A stretch of 20,271 bases of DNA, taken from positions 1 through 20,271 of the IMG/VR virus record IMGVR_UViG_3300035698_035441; one strand, given 5' to 3'. Every line of letters starts with the position of its first letter. The first letter of the stretch is position 1. The DNA is from a virus. Positions 1 to 7,531 of this stretch are shown piece after piece. The notes below the pieces were generated by a model. That model searched no databases and was not told the DNA's origin. It saw only the letters and a list, made by a program, of their open reading frames with translations. Position numbers and translations under genes: made by a program.

Positions 1-453
1 CTATTCTGGCAACGTTCCTTTTTCCAATTCAGACCGATATCCGGCTTTTGAGATAGTGATGTGGTCAAGCACGTTGATTCCAAGTACCTTACCGGCTTCC
101 ACCATTTGCTTGATTACTGCCGTGTCCTCGATACTGGCGTCCAGGTTGCCGCTAGGATGATTGTGTCCGACTATGATAGCGGTTGCATTATCGCGGATTG
201 CGTGCTCGAATACTTCGCGCGCGTGAACGATTGCACGGTTGACAGTACCGATCGACACTGTATGAATTTTGATAACATGGTGTGAACCGTCCAGCGTAAC
301 ACAAAAAAAGTGTTCCTTCGTTTTGCCAGCATACTTTTTGATCGACGGTAGCACGTTGATAGGCTGGCCGATTTTCCTGGTAGCTATTTCGTCGCATACC
401 TCAGACGCCAGCCGCTGCAAATCCGCCGTGCTCATTTCCTGATAGTTTACCAT
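1..453 (-). CDS. radC: Stand-alone RadC-like JAMM (MPN+) domain protein
   Basis: The 150-residue product is one RadC-type JAMM domain. The metal-binding motif is complete: H97-x-H99-x7-S107-x2-D110, inside the RadC signature HNHPSG. The helix-hairpin-helix part found at the start of chromosomal RadC is absent, as is common for the short copies on phages, plasmids and integrative elements. The biochemical role of this family is not settled; short copies often sit near DNA-metabolism or anti-restriction genes. I chose ATG at 453 because GAGGAG at 459-464 lies 5 bases upstream. A GTG directly before it (454-456) is too close to that site. The TAG stop is at the very left edge, so the gene is complete. 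It is the only leftward gene and diverges from the early operon. Confidence 0.9.
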   Translation of the reverse strand: MVNYQEMSTADLQRLASEVCDEIATRKIGQPINVLPSIKKYAGKTKEHFFCVTLDGSHHVIKIHTVSIGTVNRAIVHAREVFEHAIRDNATAIIVGHNHPSGNLDASIEDTAVIKQMVEAGKVLGINVLDHITISKAGYRSELEKGTLPE

Positions 454-480: not shown

Positions 481-496
481 TTACCATCTAAGGTAA
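481..496 (-). promoter_or_regulatory. Operator-like inverted repeat, copy 1
   Basis: Read leftward this is TTACCTTAGATGGTAA, with TTACC and GGTAA half-sites. It matches copy 2 (595-610) at 13 of 16 positions and copy 3 (2521-2536) at 12 of 16. It overlaps the predicted -10 of the leftward promoter, a place where a bound repressor would block transcription. The regulator is not in this window. Confidence 0.5.
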
Positions 497-518
497 CATT
501 TATTCGATAGAATGGAAA
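490..518 (-). promoter_or_regulatory. Putative leftward promoter of the radC-like gene
   Basis: On the minus strand a -35-like TTTCCA (513-518) is followed after 17 bases by TACCTT (490-495), which has the three most conserved -10 bases (T, A and final T). Predicted start is near 483, giving a leader of about 30 bases before the radC ATG. The -10 lies in the inverted repeat at 481-496. The hexamers alone are weak; support comes from identical geometry in two other sites of the window. Confidence 0.45.
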
Positions 519-572
519 GAAAAAAGCGAAAGATTTGTTATGAAAAAGCATACAAAAAGAATCGTCAAATAT

Positions 573-601
573 TTGCAAAATAAACGAATAAAGGTTACCT
601 T
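573..601 (+). promoter_or_regulatory. Putative rightward promoter of the clamp-like early operon
   Basis: TTGCAA (573-578) is followed after 17 bases by TACCTT (596-601), the same -10-like word found at the other two sites. The predicted start is near 608, leaving a leader of about 130 bases before the ATG at 740. The region 457-680 is clearly AT-rich compared with the genes around it. Confidence 0.45.
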
Positions 602-610
602 ATAAGGTAT
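595..610 (+). promoter_or_regulatory. Operator-like inverted repeat, copy 2
   Basis: TTACCTTATAAGGTAT contains a perfect 12-base palindrome, ACCTTATAAGGT (597-608). A further AAGGT half-site lies just upstream (591-595). It is the most symmetric of the three copies and covers the predicted -10 of the rightward promoter. Confidence 0.55.
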
Positions 611-653
611 AGGTAGTGTACGTTATTTAAAAAATTGACATGCAGGCTTTCAC

Positions 654-667
654 CTATCCACGGATAG
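654..667 (+). other. Small inverted repeat in the early-operon leader
   Basis: CTATCC-AC-GGATAG forms a short inverted repeat in the untranslated leader of the clamp-like gene. It could be a weak hairpin or a protein-binding site. Nothing else in 611-739 stands out apart from the ribosome binding site GGAG at 729-732. Confidence 0.3.
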
Positions 668-739
668 CAGCACAAGCGAATGAGAGCACGTCAGGCAGTG
701 AACGATTCACGCAAAAAACCAATCAATTGGAGTAGCAAA

Positions 740-1435
740 ATGACAACACTTTCAACAACTGACACAAGTGAATCCGTGTTATTCGTAGGTCGCGCCATTT
801 CCGAGGACGCGACGCGATATTTCATGGATGGAATCGAATGTGAAAGCGCAACCGCGAATACCAGGAATCTGGTAGCGACGGACGGTAGACGATTGCACGT
901 CGCCTATGGTGTAGAGACTACAATGGAAATTGGTGGCTATAAGCTGGCAAAACGCGCCAAGGCGAACAGTAAATCCGTGGAGTATTCGCCGAAAGTCAAA
1001 GGCGATTACCAATTTCCGAATTGGTTGCGCGTGATTCCTACAGAGTTCAGCGACGCGGAGCCGGTTGTAATCGATCTATCGCATACGCGAAAGAAAGATA
1101 GCGGCAAATATTCGCTGGCAGTCTGTGACATTGTGAGAGCTCTACCAGTCGACAGGTATATCAATTTTGACTTTGTCGACGATTTACAAGGTTTTTGCTG
1201 GACTATGAAAGTCGACAAAAAAAGTGGTGCGGCAGTGTTTACCACGGAAGCCGAAAAGATCGGAGTACCTGGATACCTTGCCGTGATAGCGCTCATGAAT
1301 GAGCCGGATGTGAAAGCCAAGGCAAGGCTACAACCGACACCAGAGCCGGTAGCAGAGCCTACAGAGGCTATCACAGAGCCTACATCGGTTCAACGTCGGC
1401 GAAAACCTTTTTCGTCAAAAGTGGTGGCGTCGTGA
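740..1435 (+). CDS. Putative DNA sliding-clamp-like protein (beta-clamp fold)
   Basis: The 231-residue product carries two beta-clamp (DnaN) signatures: ATDGRRLHVA at residues 46-55, matching the clamp motif ATDGxRL, and FPNWLRVIP at 92-100, matching the FPxxxxVIP stretch. These point to a clamp-like protein that would encircle DNA and tether replication proteins. At about 190 residues of folded sequence it is shorter than bacterial DnaN (about 370), so it would need to trimerise or act differently. The C-terminus (about 198-231) is a Pro/Glu/Thr-rich linker with EP repeats and a basic end, probably disordered. ATG 740 is chosen because GGAG (729-732) lies 7 bases upstream; the frame extends up to ATG 680 but without a comparable site. 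It heads the early operon, and its stop overlaps the next start. The assignment rests on motifs only. Confidence 0.5.
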   Translation: MTTLSTTDTSESVLFVGRAISEDATRYFMDGIECESATANTRNLVATDGRRLHVAYGVETTMEIGGYKLAKRAKANSKSVEYSPKVKGDYQFPNWLRVIPTEFSDAEPVVIDLSHTRKKDSGKYSLAVCDIVRALPVDRYINFDFVDDLQGFCWTMKVDKKSGAAVFTTEAEKIGVPGYLAVIALMNEPDVKAKARLQPTPEPVAEPTEAITEPTSVQRRRKPFSSKVVAS

Positions 1436-1878
1436 AGACACTAAAGGCTATCGTCAAAAGGAACGTCGGAAATTGTCAACGCGGTTGTGGCTATGTCTAC
1501 CACGATGGTATCGACTATTACTGCGAGGAGTTCTACAAAAAACAGCGTATCAACGTCAATTATCGCGCCGATTATGAGGTCAGAATGTCAAGCGAAATTG
1601 AGCGCCTAGTTCTTCATAATGAGAGCCTCTTGATTCTCGGCGAGATTGACCGTGTTAGCTTCTATGCTGACAATTCCAGCGAGCACGACAAAGCGCGCGG
1701 AGTGGAAAAACGCGGAGTATGGATCTACTGGAAGAGTGGAGTAAATCTCTGCTTTGACGAATCGCGGAATGCTGGTAATCGGTACTGGCAAAATAGCGAC
1801 GTCACCATTCAGCTAAAAGATGAAGTCGCGAAATGCGACCGATTCACGGAGTACGAAAGTATCGAGGTAGCGGCATGA
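1432..1878 (+). CDS. Hypothetical protein of the early operon
   Basis: I do not recognise this 148-residue protein. It starts with GTG overlapping the TGA of the clamp-like gene (GTGA), so it is probably translated by coupling; no strong ribosome binding site is visible. The first 35 residues hold three cysteines (C15, C19, C31) with nearby aromatic residues, which might bind metal, but the pattern is not diagnostic. The rest is mixed charged and aromatic, with no membrane segment or signal peptide. Its stop overlaps the next start (ATGA), so the three genes form a tightly coupled operon. Confidence 0.75.
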   Translation: MKTLKAIVKRNVGNCQRGCGYVYHDGIDYYCEEFYKKQRINVNYRADYEVRMSSEIERLVLHNESLLILGEIDRVSFYADNSSEHDKARGVEKRGVWIYWKSGVNLCFDESRNAGNRYWQNSDVTIQLKDEVAKCDRFTEYESIEVAA

Positions 1879-2087
1879 TAATCAAGACATACCTGAACAA
1901 GGCCGACGGCATAGAGGTAACGGTCGCGGCTCTCAAATGTGGCAAGCACGCGGTAGCAGTCTACGACATCGACGCCAGGCGATACCGAGACGGCGTCGCC
2001 GAGTTTCAGGATAGGCAACAGGCTATCCACTACGCCGAAGGAAAGGCCAATATTGACGCCGTGCCGCAAATGGTAGCCAGCTGGTAA
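1875..2087 (+). CDS. Small hypothetical protein of the early operon
   Basis: This 70-residue protein is not recognised. ATG 1875 overlaps the preceding TGA and has GAGG at 1864-1867, 7 bases upstream. The sequence has a regular alternation of hydrophobic and charged residues with a short basic stretch (DARRYRDG), fitting a small alpha/beta fold. It contains no cysteines beyond one and no membrane segment. It is the third gene of the coupled run and is followed by a hairpin. Confidence 0.7.
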   Translation: MIIKTYLNKADGIEVTVAALKCGKHAVAVYDIDARRYRDGVAEFQDRQQAIHYAEGKANIDAVPQMVASW

Positions 2088-2094
2088 GCAATCG

Positions 2095-2122
2095 GAAAGC
2101 CTAGGCGCAAGTCTAGGCTTTC
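2095..2122 (+). other. Perfect 10-bp hairpin after the third early gene
   Basis: GAAAGCCTAG (2095-2104) pairs perfectly with CTAGGCTTTC (2113-2122) across an 8-base loop. No T-run follows, so it is not a standard rho-independent terminator. It may be an RNA-stability or partial-termination element between 2087 and the DUF2958 gene at 2162. Confidence 0.55.
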
Positions 2123-2161
2123 TAATGGCCTACTAGGTCAAATACAGAAACGGAGAATGGT

Positions 2162-2461
2162 ATGATGCTACTAACGAAAGCGAATGAGAAGAGTCTACCG
2201 GCTATGTACAGCCAGGAAGAAACGCCAGCAGGTGAACAGATCGCGCAAGTCAAGTTTTTTACTCCTGACTCGAGCTGGACGTGGTACGCGACTGAGTACG
2301 ATCCTGAAGAGCGCATGTTTTTCGGTCTGGTAGACGGATTCGAAAAGGAACTAGGCTACTTTTCACTTGACGAGCTCCAGGCAGTGCGCGGAAAACTAGG
2401 CTTGCCGATTGAGCGCGATATGTACTTTACACCTTGCAAACTCGCCGAGATCATGGACTAG
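2162..2461 (+). CDS. DUF2958 family protein
   Basis: The 99-residue product matches the DUF2958 family by recall of its conserved blocks: MMLLTK at the start, [19 protein letters not shown] near residues 30-48, [20 protein letters not shown] in the middle, and [11 protein letters not shown] near the end. The family is common on plasmids, integrative elements and phages and has no established function. Length is typical, so it looks intact. GGAG at 2152-2155 lies 6 bases before ATG 2162; ATG 2165 is equally usable. A terminator follows 8 bases after the stop, so this gene ends the early operon. Confidence 0.85.
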
Positions 2462-2468
2462 CCAACAC

Positions 2469-2493
2469 AACCGCCAGCGATGGCGGTTTTTTT
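2469..2493 (+). terminator. Rho-independent terminator after the DUF2958 gene
   Basis: AACCGCCA (2469-2476), loop GCGA, then TGGCGGTT (2481-2488) form a perfect 8-bp stem, and the final T bases run on to 2493. This is a textbook terminator that closes the early operon and isolates the DUF488-like gene. Confidence 0.9.
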
Positions 2494-2498
2494 ATGCC

Positions 2499-2527
2499 TT
2501 GACTATGACATGGCACGGCAGTACCTT
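2499..2527 (+). promoter_or_regulatory. Putative promoter of the DUF488-like gene
   Basis: TTGACT (2499-2504) is followed after 17 bases by TACCTT (2522-2527), the same spacing and -10-like word as the two upstream sites. It begins 6 bases after the terminator's T-run. The predicted start is at about 2534-2535, which is the ATG itself. Confidence 0.5.
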
Positions 2528-2536
2528 ATATGATAT
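2521..2536 (+). promoter_or_regulatory. Operator-like repeat, copy 3
   Basis: GTACCTTATATGATAT matches copy 2 at 13 of 16 positions, though its right half-site is degraded (GATAT in place of GGTAT). Its last two bases are the first two of the DUF488-like start codon, so a protein bound here would cover both -10 and start codon. Confidence 0.45.
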
Positions 2537-3032
2537 GGCAAAGAGAAAAAAGGTGATCTACTTTTCGAATTTCAAGACATCTGGCAAGCTTGCCGACGCC
2601 GTATCTATTGCAGCTAGTACGCCTAGATGGTTTCAAGGTCCGAAATTGAAGTCTCTAGCGCCGGACATGGCGACAGTGAGACGGTACAAAAAAAATCCTG
2701 CCGGGCAACTCGACTGGTACATGCAGGATTACTTGGTGATGATTTACAACCTGAACGATCTTGACACTATCGCGGCCGATTACGTCGGCAAGGTTCTACT
2801 CTGCTACTGTGACAAAACGGCGTTTTGCCATAGGCAATTACTGGCAAAGACTCTTGAAATCGAGTTTGGCTATGAGTGTAAAGAGATCGGCGGTTGGGAA
2901 ATACCTTTTGACAAGCCGTTTGAAGATCCTACATCATTCATGAGTCTGACGGTTCCATTCGAGGGTGAAGAGGTCGACATAGTCGGCAACTACGCCAAGT
3001 TTCGCGATGAGCGGTTAAAATATCAGAGTTGA
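2535..3032 (+). CDS. DUF488-like protein
   Basis: The 165-residue product resembles DUF488 proteins. The main evidence is the block LLCYCDKTAFCHRQLLA (residues 88-104), matching the family pattern of a hydrophobic strand, Cys-x-Cys/Glu, then CHR before a helix. The N-terminus (VIYFSNFKTSGKL) would be the first strand of the fold. DUF488 has no established biochemical role. ATG 2535 is chosen because translation from there begins with a basic MAKRKK followed by the first strand. The frame is open upstream but runs through the terminator. No Shine-Dalgarno site precedes 2535 and the predicted transcript start coincides with the ATG, so translation may be leaderless. The TGA stop overlaps the -35 of the tRNA promoter. 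Confidence 0.7.
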   Translation: MAKRKKVIYFSNFKTSGKLADAVSIAASTPRWFQGPKLKSLAPDMATVRRYKKNPAGQLDWYMQDYLVMIYNLNDLDTIAADYVGKVLLCYCDKTAFCHRQLLAKTLEIEFGYECKEIGGWEIPFDKPFEDPTSFMSLTVPFEGEEVDIVGNYAKFRDERLKYQS

Positions 3033-3058
3033 CAAGTTCTCATTCGTGGTTCTATACT
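3029..3058 (+). promoter_or_regulatory. Strong sigma70-type promoter of the tRNA and downstream genes
   Basis: A consensus TTGACA (3029-3034) is followed after 18 bases by TATACT (3053-3058), which is 5 of 6 to consensus. Transcription should begin about 6-7 bases later, at 3064-3065, the first base of the tRNA. It is the best promoter in the window and does not share the operator motif of the early promoters. It may also serve the PP-loop, ParB-like and terminase genes. Confidence 0.75.
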
Positions 3059-3063
3059 TTGGA

Positions 3064-3135
3064 TGCGGGGTGGTGTAACGATAGCACGGCAGGTTAAGCA
3101 CTTGCAGGCTGTGGGTTTGACTCCCTCCCCCGCTA
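3064..3135 (+). tRNA. tRNA or tRNA-like gene, apparent anticodon AAG
   Basis: A cloverleaf can be drawn by hand. The acceptor stem has 6 G-C pairs plus a U1-U72 mismatch; the D stem is GTGT/GCAC; the anticodon stem is GCAGG/CTTGC with one G-U; the T stem is GTGGG/CCCTC with one mismatch. Tertiary partners are present: U8-A14, A15-U48, G18-U55, U54-A58 and G26/A44. The usual G19-C56 pair is replaced by A19-U56. The 7-base anticodon loop TTAAGCA gives AAG at 3096-3098, which would read the Leu codon CUU, yet the variable region is only 5 bases, unlike a leucine tRNA. Position 37 is C, also unusual. The discriminator is A (3135) and CCA is not encoded. The body resembles tRNA-Gln in its D loop. 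Function as a decoding tRNA is uncertain. Confidence 0.65.
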
Positions 3136-3151: not shown

Positions 3152-3595
3152 GTGATCTGCTTAACAGACCATTCAGTACTGGAAGATTCGCGTCCGTGCC
3201 CAATGCCCAGACCAACAGACGGTCGGCCCGAGGACCACGTGGTGGCGGTGGTGGCGGCTGAGATCGTCACAGACACGCTGGAACAGCTAACCCTGATCCG
3301 GCGGTCATCGAACTCAATCCTTGTCTCCTTCTCGGTGGGCAAGGATTCTTTAGTCTTACTGCACTTGGCGCGACAAGTTTTTGATCGTGTTGAGTGCTTT
3401 TTCATGTACTACGTCCCTGGTATCAGGTTGGTGGAAGATCAGATCGATAACTGCGAGGACAAGTACAAGGTCAAAATCCACCACATCCAGCACTGGGGCT
3501 ACTACGCCGCTAAGAAAAACGGCGTCTACTGCTCACCGAATCCCGACGTAAAACTCTGGAAATTAAGCGATTGCTACGAAAGGCCAGGGAGATGA
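3152..3595 (+). CDS. PAPS-reductase-like PP-loop protein, N-terminal part (split gene, IbrA-like)
   Basis: This frame encodes the ATP-pyrophosphatase half of a CysH/PAPS-reductase-family protein. The PP-loop SFSVGKDS lies at residues 59-66, preceded by a hydrophobic strand (SILV) and followed by the helix LVLLHLARQVF. A second conserved stretch (HWGYYAAKKNGVYCSPNPDVKLWKLSDCYE) precedes the break. Such proteins adenylate a substrate or handle sulfur; phage copies are mostly uncharacterised. The frame ends at TGA 3593-3595, but the family continues without a gap in the next frame, so the gene appears split by one missing base near 3578-3582. The start is uncertain: GTG 3152 gives the longest product, while GTG 3239 has GAGGA just upstream and still precedes the PP-loop. 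It begins 16 bases after the tRNA. Confidence 0.7.
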   Translation: MICLTDHSVLEDSRPCPMPRPTDGRPEDHVVAVVAAEIVTDTLEQLTLIRRSSNSILVSFSVGKDSLVLLHLARQVFDRVECFFMYYVPGIRLVEDQIDNCEDKYKVKIHHIQHWGYYAAKKNGVYCSPNPDVKLWKLSDCYERPGR

Positions 3596-3984
3596 GCGGG
3601 ATCAAACCCATCATCATGGGCGGGAAACGAGATGACGGGCAGTGGCGCAGAACCAACGCCGGAGAGGCCACGACCGGATCCTACGGCGATGTCTACCGCC
3701 CGATTTACGACTGGACGACTTACGACGTGGTCGGTTTCTGTAAGCTCAAGGGCATCCCAATTCCAAAGTCGGAGAACAGTAAGAATACCGGCGTGGATCT
3801 CAGTACCAAATTCGTGCTGTGGGCATATGAAAACGAGCCCCAGGCATACGATAAACTAAAAGAGCATTTCCCGTTCCTGGACGCGATGGTGCTCCGAAAG
3901 GATTGGTTCAATGTCCCAGACGAAAGCAAAGCCAGCGGCAAAGCCGGCAGCAAAGAAAACAGCAAAGCCGAAGCCACCGCCTAA
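3592..3984 (+). CDS. PAPS-reductase-like PP-loop protein, C-terminal part (split gene)
   Basis: This frame continues the same family. IMGGKRDDGQWRR is the Gly/Arg motif that follows the PP-loop half in PAPS reductases, and YRPIYDWTTYDVVGFCKLKGIPIP is the typical DWTxxDV block. Joining the frames as CYE-KAREMSG restores a smooth protein, which would need a fourth A after GAA at 3578. The ATG at 3592 overlaps the upstream TGA as ATGA, so the second half could be translated by coupling; a TTG at 3571 opens the frame earlier. The last 20 residues (ESKASGKAGSKENSKAEATA) are low complexity and lie where the ParB-like gene overlaps in another frame. Whether this is a real fission, a decayed gene or an assembly error cannot be decided here. 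Confidence 0.65.
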   Translation: MSGIKPIIMGGKRDDGQWRRTNAGEATTGSYGDVYRPIYDWTTYDVVGFCKLKGIPIPKSENSKNTGVDLSTKFVLWAYENEPQAYDKLKEHFPFLDAMVLRKDWFNVPDESKASGKAGSKENSKAEATA

Positions 3985-4747
3985 ACTCAGCAAGTTCGAG
4001 CGTTTCGACATGCAAGAAGTGGATCGCGGCGAACTCGTCAAGGCTCCATACAACCCGCGTAAAATCAAAAGCGACAACAAACAACGCCTCCGGGAACGCA
4101 TAGAGCGCGTGGGAATGCTCGCGCCCATCGTCTGGAACAAGCAGACCGGCAACATCGTGTCGGGCCACCAACGCCTCGAGGTCTTAGACACTCTCAGCAG
4201 ATCCAAAAACTACAAGCTCACTGTCGCGGTTGTGGATCTCGACCCCGCGACCGAGAAAGAGCAGAACATGTTCTTCAACAACACCTCCTCTCAGGGCGAG
4301 TGGTATCTCGACAAGCTCGGCGATCTATGGGACGACGACATCAACATGGCATTGGCCGGCTTTTCCAAAATAGACATGGAGGCTTTGTTTGACGCCGATC
4401 CCGCCGACGTGTTCGCGGAGTCACTCGAAGCCAACGAGGTCCCGCTCGAGGCACCGCCCAGGGCCGCGGCCAAAGCGCCGAAAGATCAGACCGACGACGA
4501 TGGCAACGTCCACGAGGAAGCCAACCCCGATGACAAATACTTTGAGCAAGGCGACAAGGTCAGAGAAGGAATGCGACATCGCAAGCGCAGGGCGGCGGTG
4601 GCTGGCCTGCGAGAGGACGTCGACTTCTTCTTTGTGGCCGTATTCCGGACCCAGCAGGAGCGGGATTCTTTCCTTGCCGATTACGGCGTAGAAGAGGCAC
4701 AATTCATAAACGGCAACGTGCTAAGGGAGGCTATAAATGGCAGCTAA
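3911..4747 (+). CDS. ParB/sulfiredoxin-like domain protein (IbrB-like)
   Basis: The 278-residue product has a ParB-type nuclease/sulfiredoxin fold at about residues 33-125: YNPRKI (47-52), a helix with GMLAPIVWN (68-76), then the GHQRLE box (85-90), a variant of ParB GxHR. A 25-residue N-terminal tail is built of Ala/Lys/Pro repeats, and a charged linker (about 180-215) leads to a C-terminal domain containing DVDFFFVAVFRTQQERDSFLADYGV. A ParB-like gene directly after a PAPS-reductase-like gene is the arrangement of the prophage pair IbrA/IbrB; such ParB-like proteins may bind or act on nucleotides rather than segregate DNA. The start is supported by AAAGGA (3897-3902) 8 bases before ATG 3911, although this makes it overlap the upstream frame by 74 bases. 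Its stop overlaps the terminase small subunit by 11 bases. Confidence 0.8.
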   Translation: MSQTKAKPAAKPAAKKTAKPKPPPKLSKFERFDMQEVDRGELVKAPYNPRKIKSDNKQRLRERIERVGMLAPIVWNKQTGNIVSGHQRLEVLDTLSRSKNYKLTVAVVDLDPATEKEQNMFFNNTSSQGEWYLDKLGDLWDDDINMALAGFSKIDMEALFDADPADVFAESLEANEVPLEAPPRAAAKAPKDQTDDDGNVHEEANPDDKYFEQGDKVREGMRHRKRRAAVAGLREDVDFFFVAVFRTQQERDSFLADYGVEEAQFINGNVLREAINGS

Positions 4748-5360
4748 AAAGAAACAGCCGGCCAAAAAGCCAAAGAAGAAGCCAAAGAAGAAACCAAAGA
4801 AGAAACCGGCGAAAAAGCCTGAGACCAGGGGCAGGCCCACGAAGTACAGCAAGGGCCTCGTCGTAGCCGCCGAGTTCATGGCCCGGGCGGGAATGATCGA
4901 CAAGGACATGGCCGAGAAAATCGGTGTCCACAAATCCACGTTCGACAAATGGAAAAATGATCACCCCGAGTTCAAGGCCGCTTTAACCAAGGGCAAGCAG
5001 ACCCCGAACGAAGAAGTCGAGGCCGCTCTGTTCAAATCAGCCATCGGGTACAACGTCGACGACGTCACGCAGGACCGCAAGGCCAACCCCAACTACGACC
5101 CCGAAGATCCAAACAGCCCGAAAGAGATCATTGTCCGTACCCACCTCAACCGCCGCCATGTTCCGGTATCAAATCTTGCGCAGATCTACTGGCTCAACAA
5201 CCGCAGCCGTGACCAGGTAGGGGCCGGGGATTTTCAGGTCTTGGTGTGGAGCCAGAAGCAGGAAATCCAGATCAACGTAGAGACGGACCCGTTGACGGTG
5301 TTTGCTGAAGCCATATCAGCGTTCAAGCTCGATGCAGATAAGCCCGACACAGCAGATTGA
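4737..5360 (+). CDS. terS: Terminase small subunit
   Basis: The 207-residue protein has the layout of a small terminase: a very basic tail (KKPKKKP repeats, residues 3-28), then RGRPTKYSKGLVVAAEFMARAGMIDKDMAEKIGVHKSTFDKWKNDHPEFKAAL, a helix-turn-helix of the kind that recognises the packaging site, then an oligomerisation region. It lies directly before the large terminase, which decides the assignment. AGGGAGG at about 4724-4730 precedes ATG 4737. The stop overlaps the next start as TTGA. The long Lys/Pro tail is not usual for the family and comes from a tandem DNA repeat. Confidence 0.85.
   Translation: MAAKKKQPAKKPKKKPKKKPKKKPAKKPETRGRPTKYSKGLVVAAEFMARAGMIDKDMAEKIGVHKSTFDKWKNDHPEFKAALTKGKQTPNEEVEAALFKSAIGYNVDDVTQDRKANPNYDPEDPNSPKEIIVRTHLNRRHVPVSNLAQIYWLNNRSRDQVGAGDFQVLVWSQKQEIQINVETDPLTVFAEAISAFKLDADKPDTAD
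4758..4818 (+). repeat. Short tandem repeat coding for Lys/Pro tail of TerS
   Basis: About five near-copies of a 12-base unit resembling aagaagccaaag encode repeated KKPK units at the start of the small terminase. Copies differ by single silent changes. Such a repeat can expand or shrink by replication slippage without breaking the frame. Confidence 0.7.
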
Positions 5361-7531
5361 ACCCGCTCACACACAAACAGGCGATAATACTCGATCACTA
5401 CAACCGCGAGCAGCCCCAACACATCATCATGGAGGGTGCGGTGCGTTCGGGAAAAACCTATCTCAATAACATTTTGTGGGCGACTCTCATCGGCAACACC
5501 CCCGGCCCCGGCAAGCAATTTATTTTGACCGGCACCACTATCGGATCGATTGAGCGCAACGTCGTCGCCTCCATCGAGGAGCTCACGGCCCGCAAAATCA
5601 CACTCAACAATTTCAATGAGTTCCCCCTGGTCCAGCACCTCGTGTGTTGTTTTGGTGCCAGCCAAGAAAGTAGTCATAAAGCTATGCAGGGGATGACCGG
5701 ATATGGGTGGTACGCCAATGAGGTGGTGAATCATCACATCAATACCATCCACGAGGCATTCAACCGCTGCAGTGGGGAAGGCGCCCGATTCTTTTGGGAT
5801 ACAAACCCCGACCATCCCCAGCACCCGGTCAAGACCCAGTACATAGATCGCTCCGGTCTCAGGGACGAGAACGGAAAGCTATTGGTTCAGGCGTGGCACT
5901 TCAAACTTGACGACAACGAAACCTTGACGCCCGAATACGTGGAAATGGTAAAGCGCAATACCCCTCCTGGGATGTGGTACGACCGCCGCGTCTTGGGGAA
6001 GTGGGTCGCTGCCGAAGGTGTGATCTTCACGAACTGGGAAGAGATACCGGTTATCCCCGAAAATGTAAAACGCCACTCACAGAGGATCTACGGCCTTGAC
6101 TTCGGGTTTTCGGTAGATCCGGCTGTGATCATCGATGTCTATTTTAACGGTGATGAGATCTGGGTTGACGAGCTCCTGTACTCGACTAACTACACGAATT
6201 ACATGCTCGCCGCCGACATGCGGGAAATGTGTGATTACGAGTTCCCGATATACGCCGACAGCGCCGAACCCAAATCAATCGAGGAAATAGCTGGCTTTGG
6301 TTTCAACATCCACGGCGCGACCAAGGGCCCTGATTCGGTGCGCGTGGGAATCGACTGGCTCATGGGCAAAAGAATCTACGTTACCGAACGGAGCAAAAAC
6401 ATCATCCAGGAATTGCAGCAATATAGCTGGCGGATGAACAAAGAAGGTACGTTACTGCCGGTGCCCGTAGACAAATACAATCACTGCCTGGCTGGATCGA
6501 CGATAATAGAGACCGCCGACGGCTGGAAGCGTTTAGACAAAATGCAGGCAGGCAAGTGCTTGACGTCATCGGGGATGAAAAACGTGTCGGCGGCGTGGAA
6601 GTCTGGCGACGCGGAGAAGCTGTACGAGGTAGTCACGACGAGTGGGAAGTCCGTACTCGCCACCGCCAAGCACAAAATAAAGACACAAGAGGGATGGAAA
6701 ACAGTTGACGCCTTGCGATATGCAGATGTAATATGTATTGCAAGGAGATCAAAATGGCAGTGTCTGAAATCGTTGTTTTTGAAGGCAGGAAATATCTGCG
6801 ATGGCCCGAATCAAAAAGATGGTCAGATAAATCGTACTACAGATCCGGTAATGGCAAACGCTTGCACGTTGCAGTATGGGAAAGTAAGCATGGGCCGGTT
6901 CCGAAAGGATTCCATATTCACCACGTTGACCAGAATCCTCTCAACAACAGCGTCGAAAATCTGGGATGCGTCAAAAACAAAGAGCATTGGTGCATGCACG
7001 AAATACCGCCAGAACGACGCAAAGCAATGCGAGAGAACCTCGACAGGATCAGGCACAAAACAAAAGCATGGCACGCGAGCGAAGAGGGCAGGGCGTGGCA
7101 TTCACAGCATGGACGAGAAGCGTACAAGAACAGAAAGCCCATCAAGAGGATTTGCGCATGCTGTGGCAAAGCGTTTGAAGACATGGCTCGCAGAGATTCG
7201 AGTCGGTTCTGCTCTAATGTGTGCAAAAGCAGAGCACGGCGCGATTCTGGCGTTGATAACGTTGTCAGGGTATGCGCCGTTTGCGGAAAGGATTTTACGG
7301 TCAATAAGTACAGTAAGAGCAGACATTGTTCCCCGTCATGTTCTGCGCGTGCGAGAAGTAAGAAGATCGCATAAAGTCTACGACGCTGAAGTCGAGGACG
7401 CCCATGAGTTTTTCGCCAATGGCATACTCGTTCACAACAGCATCGACGCATTACGCTACGCCTCAAGTGAGTTCATCGACGTCTATCGCGGCCGTCTCTC
7501 CGATGCCGACGCCGGGGATCTGGGACTGTAG
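5357..7531 (+). CDS. terL: Terminase large subunit containing an intein
   Basis: The 724-residue precursor contains a complete packaging motor. Walker A is GAVRSGKT (27-34); the Walker B region is YGWYANEV with E122; FWDTNPDHPQHP follows at 146-157. The RuvC-like nuclease has YGLDFG (D248), YADSAEP (D301) and DKYNH...SIDALRY (D697). The last motif is interrupted after H376 by an intein, C377-N694 (318 residues); splicing would join DKYNH to SIDALRY and give a 406-residue TerL, a normal size. The start is TTG 5357 overlapping the TerS TGA; no strong ribosome binding site is visible and no other start would keep the N-terminal helix before Walker A, so coupling is likely. N121 stands where Asp is common in Walker B. 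The central 200 residues of the intein are the off-frame reading of an HNH gene. Confidence 0.92.
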   Translation: MNPLTHKQAIILDHYNREQPQHIIMEGAVRSGKTYLNNILWATLIGNTPGPGKQFILTGTTIGSIERNVVASIEELTARKITLNNFNEFPLVQHLVCCFGASQESSHKAMQGMTGYGWYANEVVNHHINTIHEAFNRCSGEGARFFWDTNPDHPQHPVKTQYIDRSGLRDENGKLLVQAWHFKLDDNETLTPEYVEMVKRNTPPGMWYDRRVLGKWVAAEGVIFTNWEEIPVIPENVKRHSQRIYGLDFGFSVDPAVIIDVYFNGDEIWVDELLYSTNYTNYMLAADMREMCDYEFPIYADSAEPKSIEEIAGFGFNIHGATKGPDSVRVGIDWLMGKRIYVTERSKNIIQELQQYSWRMNKEGTLLPVPVDKYNHCLAGSTIIETADGWKRLDKMQAGKCLTSSGMKNVSAAWKSGDAEKLYEVVTTSGKSVLATAKHKIKTQEGWKTVDALRYADVICIARRSKWQCLKSLFLKAGNICDGPNQKDGQINRTTDPVMANACTLQYGKVSMGRFRKDSIFTTLTRILSTTASKIWDASKTKSIGACTKYRQNDAKQCERTSTGSGTKQKHGTRAKRAGRGIHSMDEKRTRTESPSRGFAHAVAKRLKTWLAEIRVGSALMCAKAEHGAILALITLSGYAPFAERILRSISTVRADIVPRHVLRVREVRRSHKVYDAEVEDAHEFFANGILVHNSIDALRYASSEFIDVYRGRLSDADAGDLGL
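6485..7438 (+). mobile_element. Intein in the TerL nuclease motif, interrupted by an off-frame HNH gene
   Basis: The N-terminal splicing region begins CLAGSTIIETADGW (block A, Cys1 = residue 377 of the precursor). Block B is VLATAKHKIKTQEGW with the TxxH motif (T436, H439). The C-terminal region has VYDAEVEDAHEFFANGILVHN (blocks F and G, ending H693-N694) followed by Ser695 as the +1 residue. All catalytic residues needed for splicing are present. The N part ends near residue 463 (ICIARR) and the C part begins near 671 (SHKVYD). Between them, about 207 residues rich in Arg, Lys, Ser and Thr show no LAGLIDADG or HNH motif in this frame. The insertion point is a catalytic motif of the host protein, typical for inteins. 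Confidence 0.92.
6754..7374 (+). CDS. HNH homing endonuclease nested out of frame in the intein
   Basis: The 206-residue protein has an HNH_3-type nuclease domain: LHVAVWESKHGPVPKGFHIHHVDQNPLNNSVENL at about 37-70, with H56, H57, D59, N61, N64 and H78 as likely active-site and metal residues. Two zinc-finger-like units follow: C134-x2-C137 with C153-x3-C157, and C174-x2-C177 with C192-x3-C196, probably for DNA binding. AAGGAG (6742-6747) lies 6 bases before ATG 6754, so the protein is probably made on its own; ATG 6733 in frame lacks such a site. The TAA stop falls where the C-terminal splicing part begins. Its frame differs from the terminase-intein frame, which stays open throughout. Expected role: cutting intein-free terL genes to spread the intein. 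Confidence 0.9.
   Translation: MAVSEIVVFEGRKYLRWPESKRWSDKSYYRSGNGKRLHVAVWESKHGPVPKGFHIHHVDQNPLNNSVENLGCVKNKEHWCMHEIPPERRKAMRENLDRIRHKTKAWHASEEGRAWHSQHGREAYKNRKPIKRICACCGKAFEDMARRDSSRFCSNVCKSRARRDSGVDNVVRVCAVCGKDFTVNKYSKSRHCSPSCSARARSKKIA

Follow-up and report, generated by a model that had tools for sequence, protein, structure and literature searches.

Three operator-like palindromic sites at putative promoters of an unclassified phage

Gene content and relatives of the phage record

The stretch of DNA analyzed here (the window) is a virus record taken at its complete length of 20,271 bases and belongs to an unclassified phage. This 20-kb record is probably an incomplete fragment of a larger genome. 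From 5' to 3', it carries a leftward radC-like gene, a clamp-like operon, a DUF2958 gene, a DUF488-like gene, a tRNA, a PAPS-reductase-like gene, a ParB-like gene, the terminase genes and a portal gene, followed 3' by additional ORFs resembling head and tail genes. Of the window, 4.5% is noncoding. The edge of the record falls at the radC gene, and an immunity region may be missing from it.

The initial annotation described three promoters facing a radC-like gene, a clamp operon and a DUF488-like gene, and these gene labels fared unequally. Pfam supported both the RadC-like JAB-domain gene (positions 1–453, minus strand; RadC, 5.4e-35) and the DUF488-like gene (2535–3032, plus strand; DUF488-N3a, 1.3e-6), while the clamp label proved weak. 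The protein of the first gene in that operon (740–1435, plus strand) matched Pfam DNA_pol3_beta_2 at E = 0.035, under the curated cut-off, and a beta-clamp in the PDB at E of about 0.5, and its structure model was uninformative (pLDDT 33). Two overlapping plus-strand ORFs of no assigned family follow (1432–1878 and 1875–2087, spanning 1432–2087); a family search gave no match for either, and they are presumably co-transcribed with the clamp-like gene.

No close relatives turned up when viral contigs were scanned with the clamp-like, DUF488-like and portal proteins one at a time. An alignment-based search of the same contigs with the ParB-like protein (gene at 3911–4747) identified one close relative, contig L017, whose ParB-like protein is 67% identical over the alignment, and a search with the DUF488 alignment recovered L017 again and nothing else. 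Among genome contigs, the DUF488 alignment found no relative and the ParB-like alignment only remote kin, while the RadC alignment gave two remote matches. L017 begins inside the DUF488-like gene, downstream of the three sites described below, and is therefore silent on them; no relative spanning the site region was found across the viral contig and genome scans.

Several other features of the window were recorded. ARAGORN reported a 72-nt tRNA-Leu(AAG) at 3064–3135, which has a near-consensus promoter of its own and is too short for the long variable arm that tRNA-Leu usually carries; a similar sequence occupies the same place in L017, and ARAGORN did not report that one as a tRNA. The tRNA was the sole match in an Rfam scan, and the leader at 608–745 was considered as a structured RNA and rejected (z = -0.28). 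The PAPS-reductase-like gene (3152–3984) is split into overlapping ORFs at 3152–3595 and 3571–3984, whereas a single intact ORF (228 aa) stands there in L017, and the split is either a real frameshift or a sequencing error. Finally, the terminase large subunit gene (5357–7531) contains an intein (Pfam Intein_splicing), within whose coding sequence an HNH endonuclease ORF (6733–7374, 213 aa) is nested out of frame. The same intein and HNH arrangement, in the same relative frame, occurs in a remote faecal phage contig, MT838676 (L014: 2776–4995 and 4173–4844). Hidden out-of-frame HNH genes are known from phage methylase insertions (PMC11855218), whereas the carrier here is an intein in the terminase.

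Shared palindromes and promoter geometry

A common sequence had been proposed at 481–496, 595–610 and 2521–2536, and we found a 14-bp site inside each interval. Site A, TACCTTAGATGGTA (482–495, minus strand), was identified by pattern match and covers the putative -10 of a leftward radC promoter (promoter A). Site B, TACCTTATAAGGTA (596–609, plus strand), is a perfect 14-bp palindrome, one of two in the window, and covers the putative -10 of the rightward promoter of the clamp-like operon (promoter B). Site C, TACCTTATATGATA (2522–2535, plus strand), covers the promoter and start codon region of the DUF488-like gene, which putative promoter C would serve. All three sites lie in noncoding DNA, the last base of site C being the A of the ATG at 2535, and sites A and B are 114 bp apart (about 11 helical turns).

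The sites share a layout of a TACC half-site, six central bases and GGTA, with GATA as one variant half-site. TACCTTA is invariant across them and the right arm is variable, such that dyad pairing is 7/7 at site B and 5/7 at both A and C, which are imperfect palindromes, each two positions off TACCTTATAAGGTA. Exact matches to TACCTTAnAnGnTA in the window are sites A, B and C only. The initial annotation had asked whether copies of the motif lie upstream of genes; in a search of the whole record, sequences within two mismatches of TACCTTATAAGGTA occurred at these three sites and nowhere else, all of them intergenic and at putative promoters rather than scattered in genes. TACCTT itself occurs at ten positions in the window, where the right arm matches at 5/7, 7/7 and 5/7 in the three sites, compared to at most 3/7 at the seven others.

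Each site has a -35-like hexamer exactly 17 bp upstream of TACCTT on the strand of the gene it faces, as originally described: TTTCCA at 513–518 (minus strand) for A, TTGCAA at 573–578 (plus strand) for B and TTGACT at 2499–2504 (plus strand) for C. We scored the likeness of this geometry to chance by requiring one common spacer of 15 to 19 bp, at least four of six hexamer matches at all three sites and 13 matches in total, and found it in 0.06% of flank shuffles (P of about 6e-4) on the genes' strands, or 0.2% with orientation left free. A palindromic 14-mer seed gathering three sites was not found in any of 2,000 dinucleotide shuffles of the intergenic DNA. A relaxed form of the pattern gave 9 rows against 2.0 expected, with none of 100 shuffles reaching 9, a figure inflated by palindromy because palindromic site B counts on both strands; the weaker rows consist of two of the sites read in reverse and of matches in coding sequence.

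Could these be ordinary promoters whose likeness is an effect of chance or of composition in AT-rich intergenic DNA? When any 14-mer was allowed as the seed, triplets within two mismatches were gathered in 25 of 2,000 shuffles of the intergenic DNA alone (1.25%); moreover, A and C are imperfect and the motif was selected after the sequence was seen. Against this stand the result for palindromic seeds, the separate test of -35 spacing and the contrast in right arms between the sites and the other TACCTT positions, and we regard a chance origin as very unlikely. The three shared operator-like promoter sites are a real set.

As promoters, the three are plausible but not strong, judging from their predicted elements. 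Two of the three -35 hexamers match the consensus at just four of six positions and TACCTT is a poor -10, with a TG one base before it at site A; by a simple sigma70 score with approximate weights, the putative promoters A, B and C rank 42nd, 84th and 24th in the window. The top sigma70 match of the window is the operator-free promoter of the tRNA (3029–3058), a near-consensus TTGACA-18-TATACT with a counterpart, TTGACG-17-TATGCT, in the same place in L017. This pair suggests that ordinary sigma70-type promoters serve the phage and that the host polymerase reads them.

The start of the DUF488-like gene depends on which promoter is used at site C, where a better sigma70 match, ATGACA-18-TATGAT, places its -10 at 2529–2534, inside the right arm. 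If TATGAT is the -10, transcription would start downstream of the ATG at 2535, and the GTG at 2553 would be the more probable start codon; if TTGACT-17-TACCTT is used instead, the message would be leaderless, its first base falling on or next to that ATG. The ATG at 2535 has no Shine–Dalgarno sequence, whereas radC, the clamp-like gene and the DUF2958 gene have GGAG, and the gene could start at either codon. Whichever promoter is used, the palindrome overlaps the -10 region. A hairpin with a T run resembling an intrinsic terminator (2469–2495, plus strand) lies directly upstream of promoter C, with a few bases between it and the -35; this predicted terminator would isolate the DUF488-like gene from upstream transcription, as expected if promoter C is independent.

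Candidate regulators of the three promoters

The initial annotation held that the shared geometry reflects a common phage regulator, either a repressor covering the -10 or an activator or phage sigma factor reading a -10 variant. Our analysis supports a common regulator and favors the repressor, while leaving room for a regulator of host rather than phage origin. From the sequence features above, we judge it probable that the three sites are operators of one dimeric helix-turn-helix repressor, the likeliest candidate being the immunity or early-gene repressor of the phage itself, encoded outside the fragment. Each operator would cover the -10 region of a sigma70-type promoter whose -35-like hexamer lies 17 bp upstream, so that a bound dimer would bar RNA polymerase from the -10 and turn off radC, the clamp-like operon and the DUF488-like gene together; removal of the repressor would turn on all three promoters. 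The weakness of TACCTT may be the price of bases shared by operator and promoter, and the spacing between A and B would, conjecturally, allow co-operative looping. What the sequence shows is the palindromes common to the three sites, their place between genes and the uniform -35 spacing on the strands of the genes; that a repressor binds these sites, that it is a single phage-encoded protein and that the genes are early is what we infer. Counted against this model are the 5/7 pairing of A and C, the weak TACCTT and the better -10, TATGAT, at C, together with the failure to recognize a repressor gene in the window or to find a relative that carries the region.

Alternatively, the TACCTT block could serve to switch the promoters on, as a variant -10 read by a sigma factor of the phage or as the target of a phage activator. 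The identity of TACCTTA at all three sites beside a varying right arm fits such a reading, as does the fixed spacing to the -35-like hexamer. A promoter class read by a phage-specific sigma factor, however, would have non-sigma70 elements and no need of a dyad, and here the -35 hexamers are sigma70-like, at a 17-bp spacing, and the sites keep their dyad. Because the right arm, for which a sigma factor or an activator reading the -10 variant has no need, is kept only at the three promoter copies of TACCTT, the binding site of a dimer is the better interpretation. Activators usually bind upstream of the spacer or within it, not on the -10, and no sigma-like gene was recognized among the ten proteins scanned. 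Taken together, we consider a sigma factor or activator quite unlikely.

The identity of the repressor leaves a further alternative, in which the sites are operators of a host regulator (for example, a LexA-like repressor of the SOS response or some other repressor of the chromosome) that the phage exploits to time the three units. Genes of the RadC-like and clamp-like kinds would be at home in a damage-response regulon, and no regulator or repressor gene was recognized among the proteins scanned in this probably incomplete 20-kb fragment. The closest ParB-like relatives in genomes, on the other hand, are only about 32–36% identical and come from unrelated phyla, so that they point to no one host. 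No LexA box or host operator of the TACCTTATAAGGTA sequence is known to us, and a literature search for the palindrome gave no match. A host regulator is, in our estimate, unlikely.

Another possibility considered was that the sites are not transcriptional operators but mark an iteron-like or parS-like element for replication or partition in the vicinity of the clamp-like gene. Sites A and B flank a 100-bp AT-rich stretch before that gene, and a ParB-like gene is present in the window. Yet site C lies by itself 1.9 kb away, at the start of a different gene, promoter geometry is kept at the sites, and the ParB-like gene, instead of being half of a partition pair, shares with the PAPS-reductase-like and terminase genes a cassette that is also present in Bacteroides phage BS-TP2. 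This explanation seems extremely improbable.

Returning to the repressor model, a more specific version is possible but doubtful: one phage regulator of new specificity would co-ordinate a DNA-metabolism and putative counter-defense regulon (radC, the clamp-like operon and the DUF488-like gene), in which the left arm acts as the -10 and the full palindrome as the operator. The same bases would then set both promoter strength and repression. If the repressor model as such is true, promoters and an operator sequence could be named for an otherwise undescribed phage lineage, the phage's repressor would be recognizable by its binding specificity, and the three transcription units would form one co-regulated set.

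Comparison with similar palindromes and known operators

Motif scans of other contigs did not find the three-site promoter arrangement. The ParB-like relatives from the viral-contig alignment search contained two isolated copies of the palindrome with two mismatches and no cluster. A scan of viral contigs for the palindrome with CAA at about the -35 distance gave 22 matches, most of them inside coding sequence, so the palindrome is not a widespread promoter operator. A paired-site scan of viral contigs gave nine loci, mostly intragenic repeats, plus two P2-like contigs (L004 and L012).

Like the phage described here, L004 and L012 have several TACC-N6-GGTA palindromes in one intergenic region, there as paired TTACC-N6-GGTAA, but they carry P2-like terminase and portal genes, show no relation to this phage and were judged unrelated to it. 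The likeness is possibly convergent, since it was found by pattern search. In their own right, the intergenic clusters of TTACC-N6-GGTAA palindromes (L004:13241–13374 and L012:7221–7354) are probably operators of some regulator. In a prophage-like contig, L107, TACCTTATAAGGTA and TACCTTATAAGGTT lie 64 bp apart in a divergent intergenic region (1562–1639), where a second, different palindrome adjoins the pair. There TACCTTATAAGGTA occupies the spacer of a possible promoter, with TTTACT as its -35 and TATAGT as its -10, whereas here the site is on the -10, and no genes in common with this phage were noted. Judged by pattern, similar palindromes thus appear to occur as paired intergenic sites elsewhere, a likeness that is not evidence of homology.

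The operators of CI and Cro in phages lambda and 434 are palindromes of about 14–17 bp bound by helix-turn-helix dimers, with one consensus at several promoters. The sites here likewise comprise several copies of one sequence overlapping promoter elements, and the 14-bp length and 4-6-4 layout are common to them and 434. In contrast, lambda and 434 have tandem triplets and a cI/cro pair, compared to one site per promoter, another sequence and no cI/cro in this fragment. In operator sets of the lambda, 434 and N15 kind, the gene for the cognate helix-turn-helix repressor belongs to the same phage and usually adjoins an operator; none was recognized among the proteins scanned here. That several promoters of a single phage share operators is established in lambda and N15, and in N15, PY54 and phiKO2 one repressor has related sites at several promoters, including that of a replication gene, the Cro site of PY54 being a 16-bp palindrome (PMC4488713). 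Those sites have another sequence and another length than ours, no immunity region can be seen in the record and no relatedness to these phages was seen. The three promoters most likely represent a phage repressor regulon of the ordinary kind, its mechanism textbook phage regulation and its operator sequence apparently undescribed.
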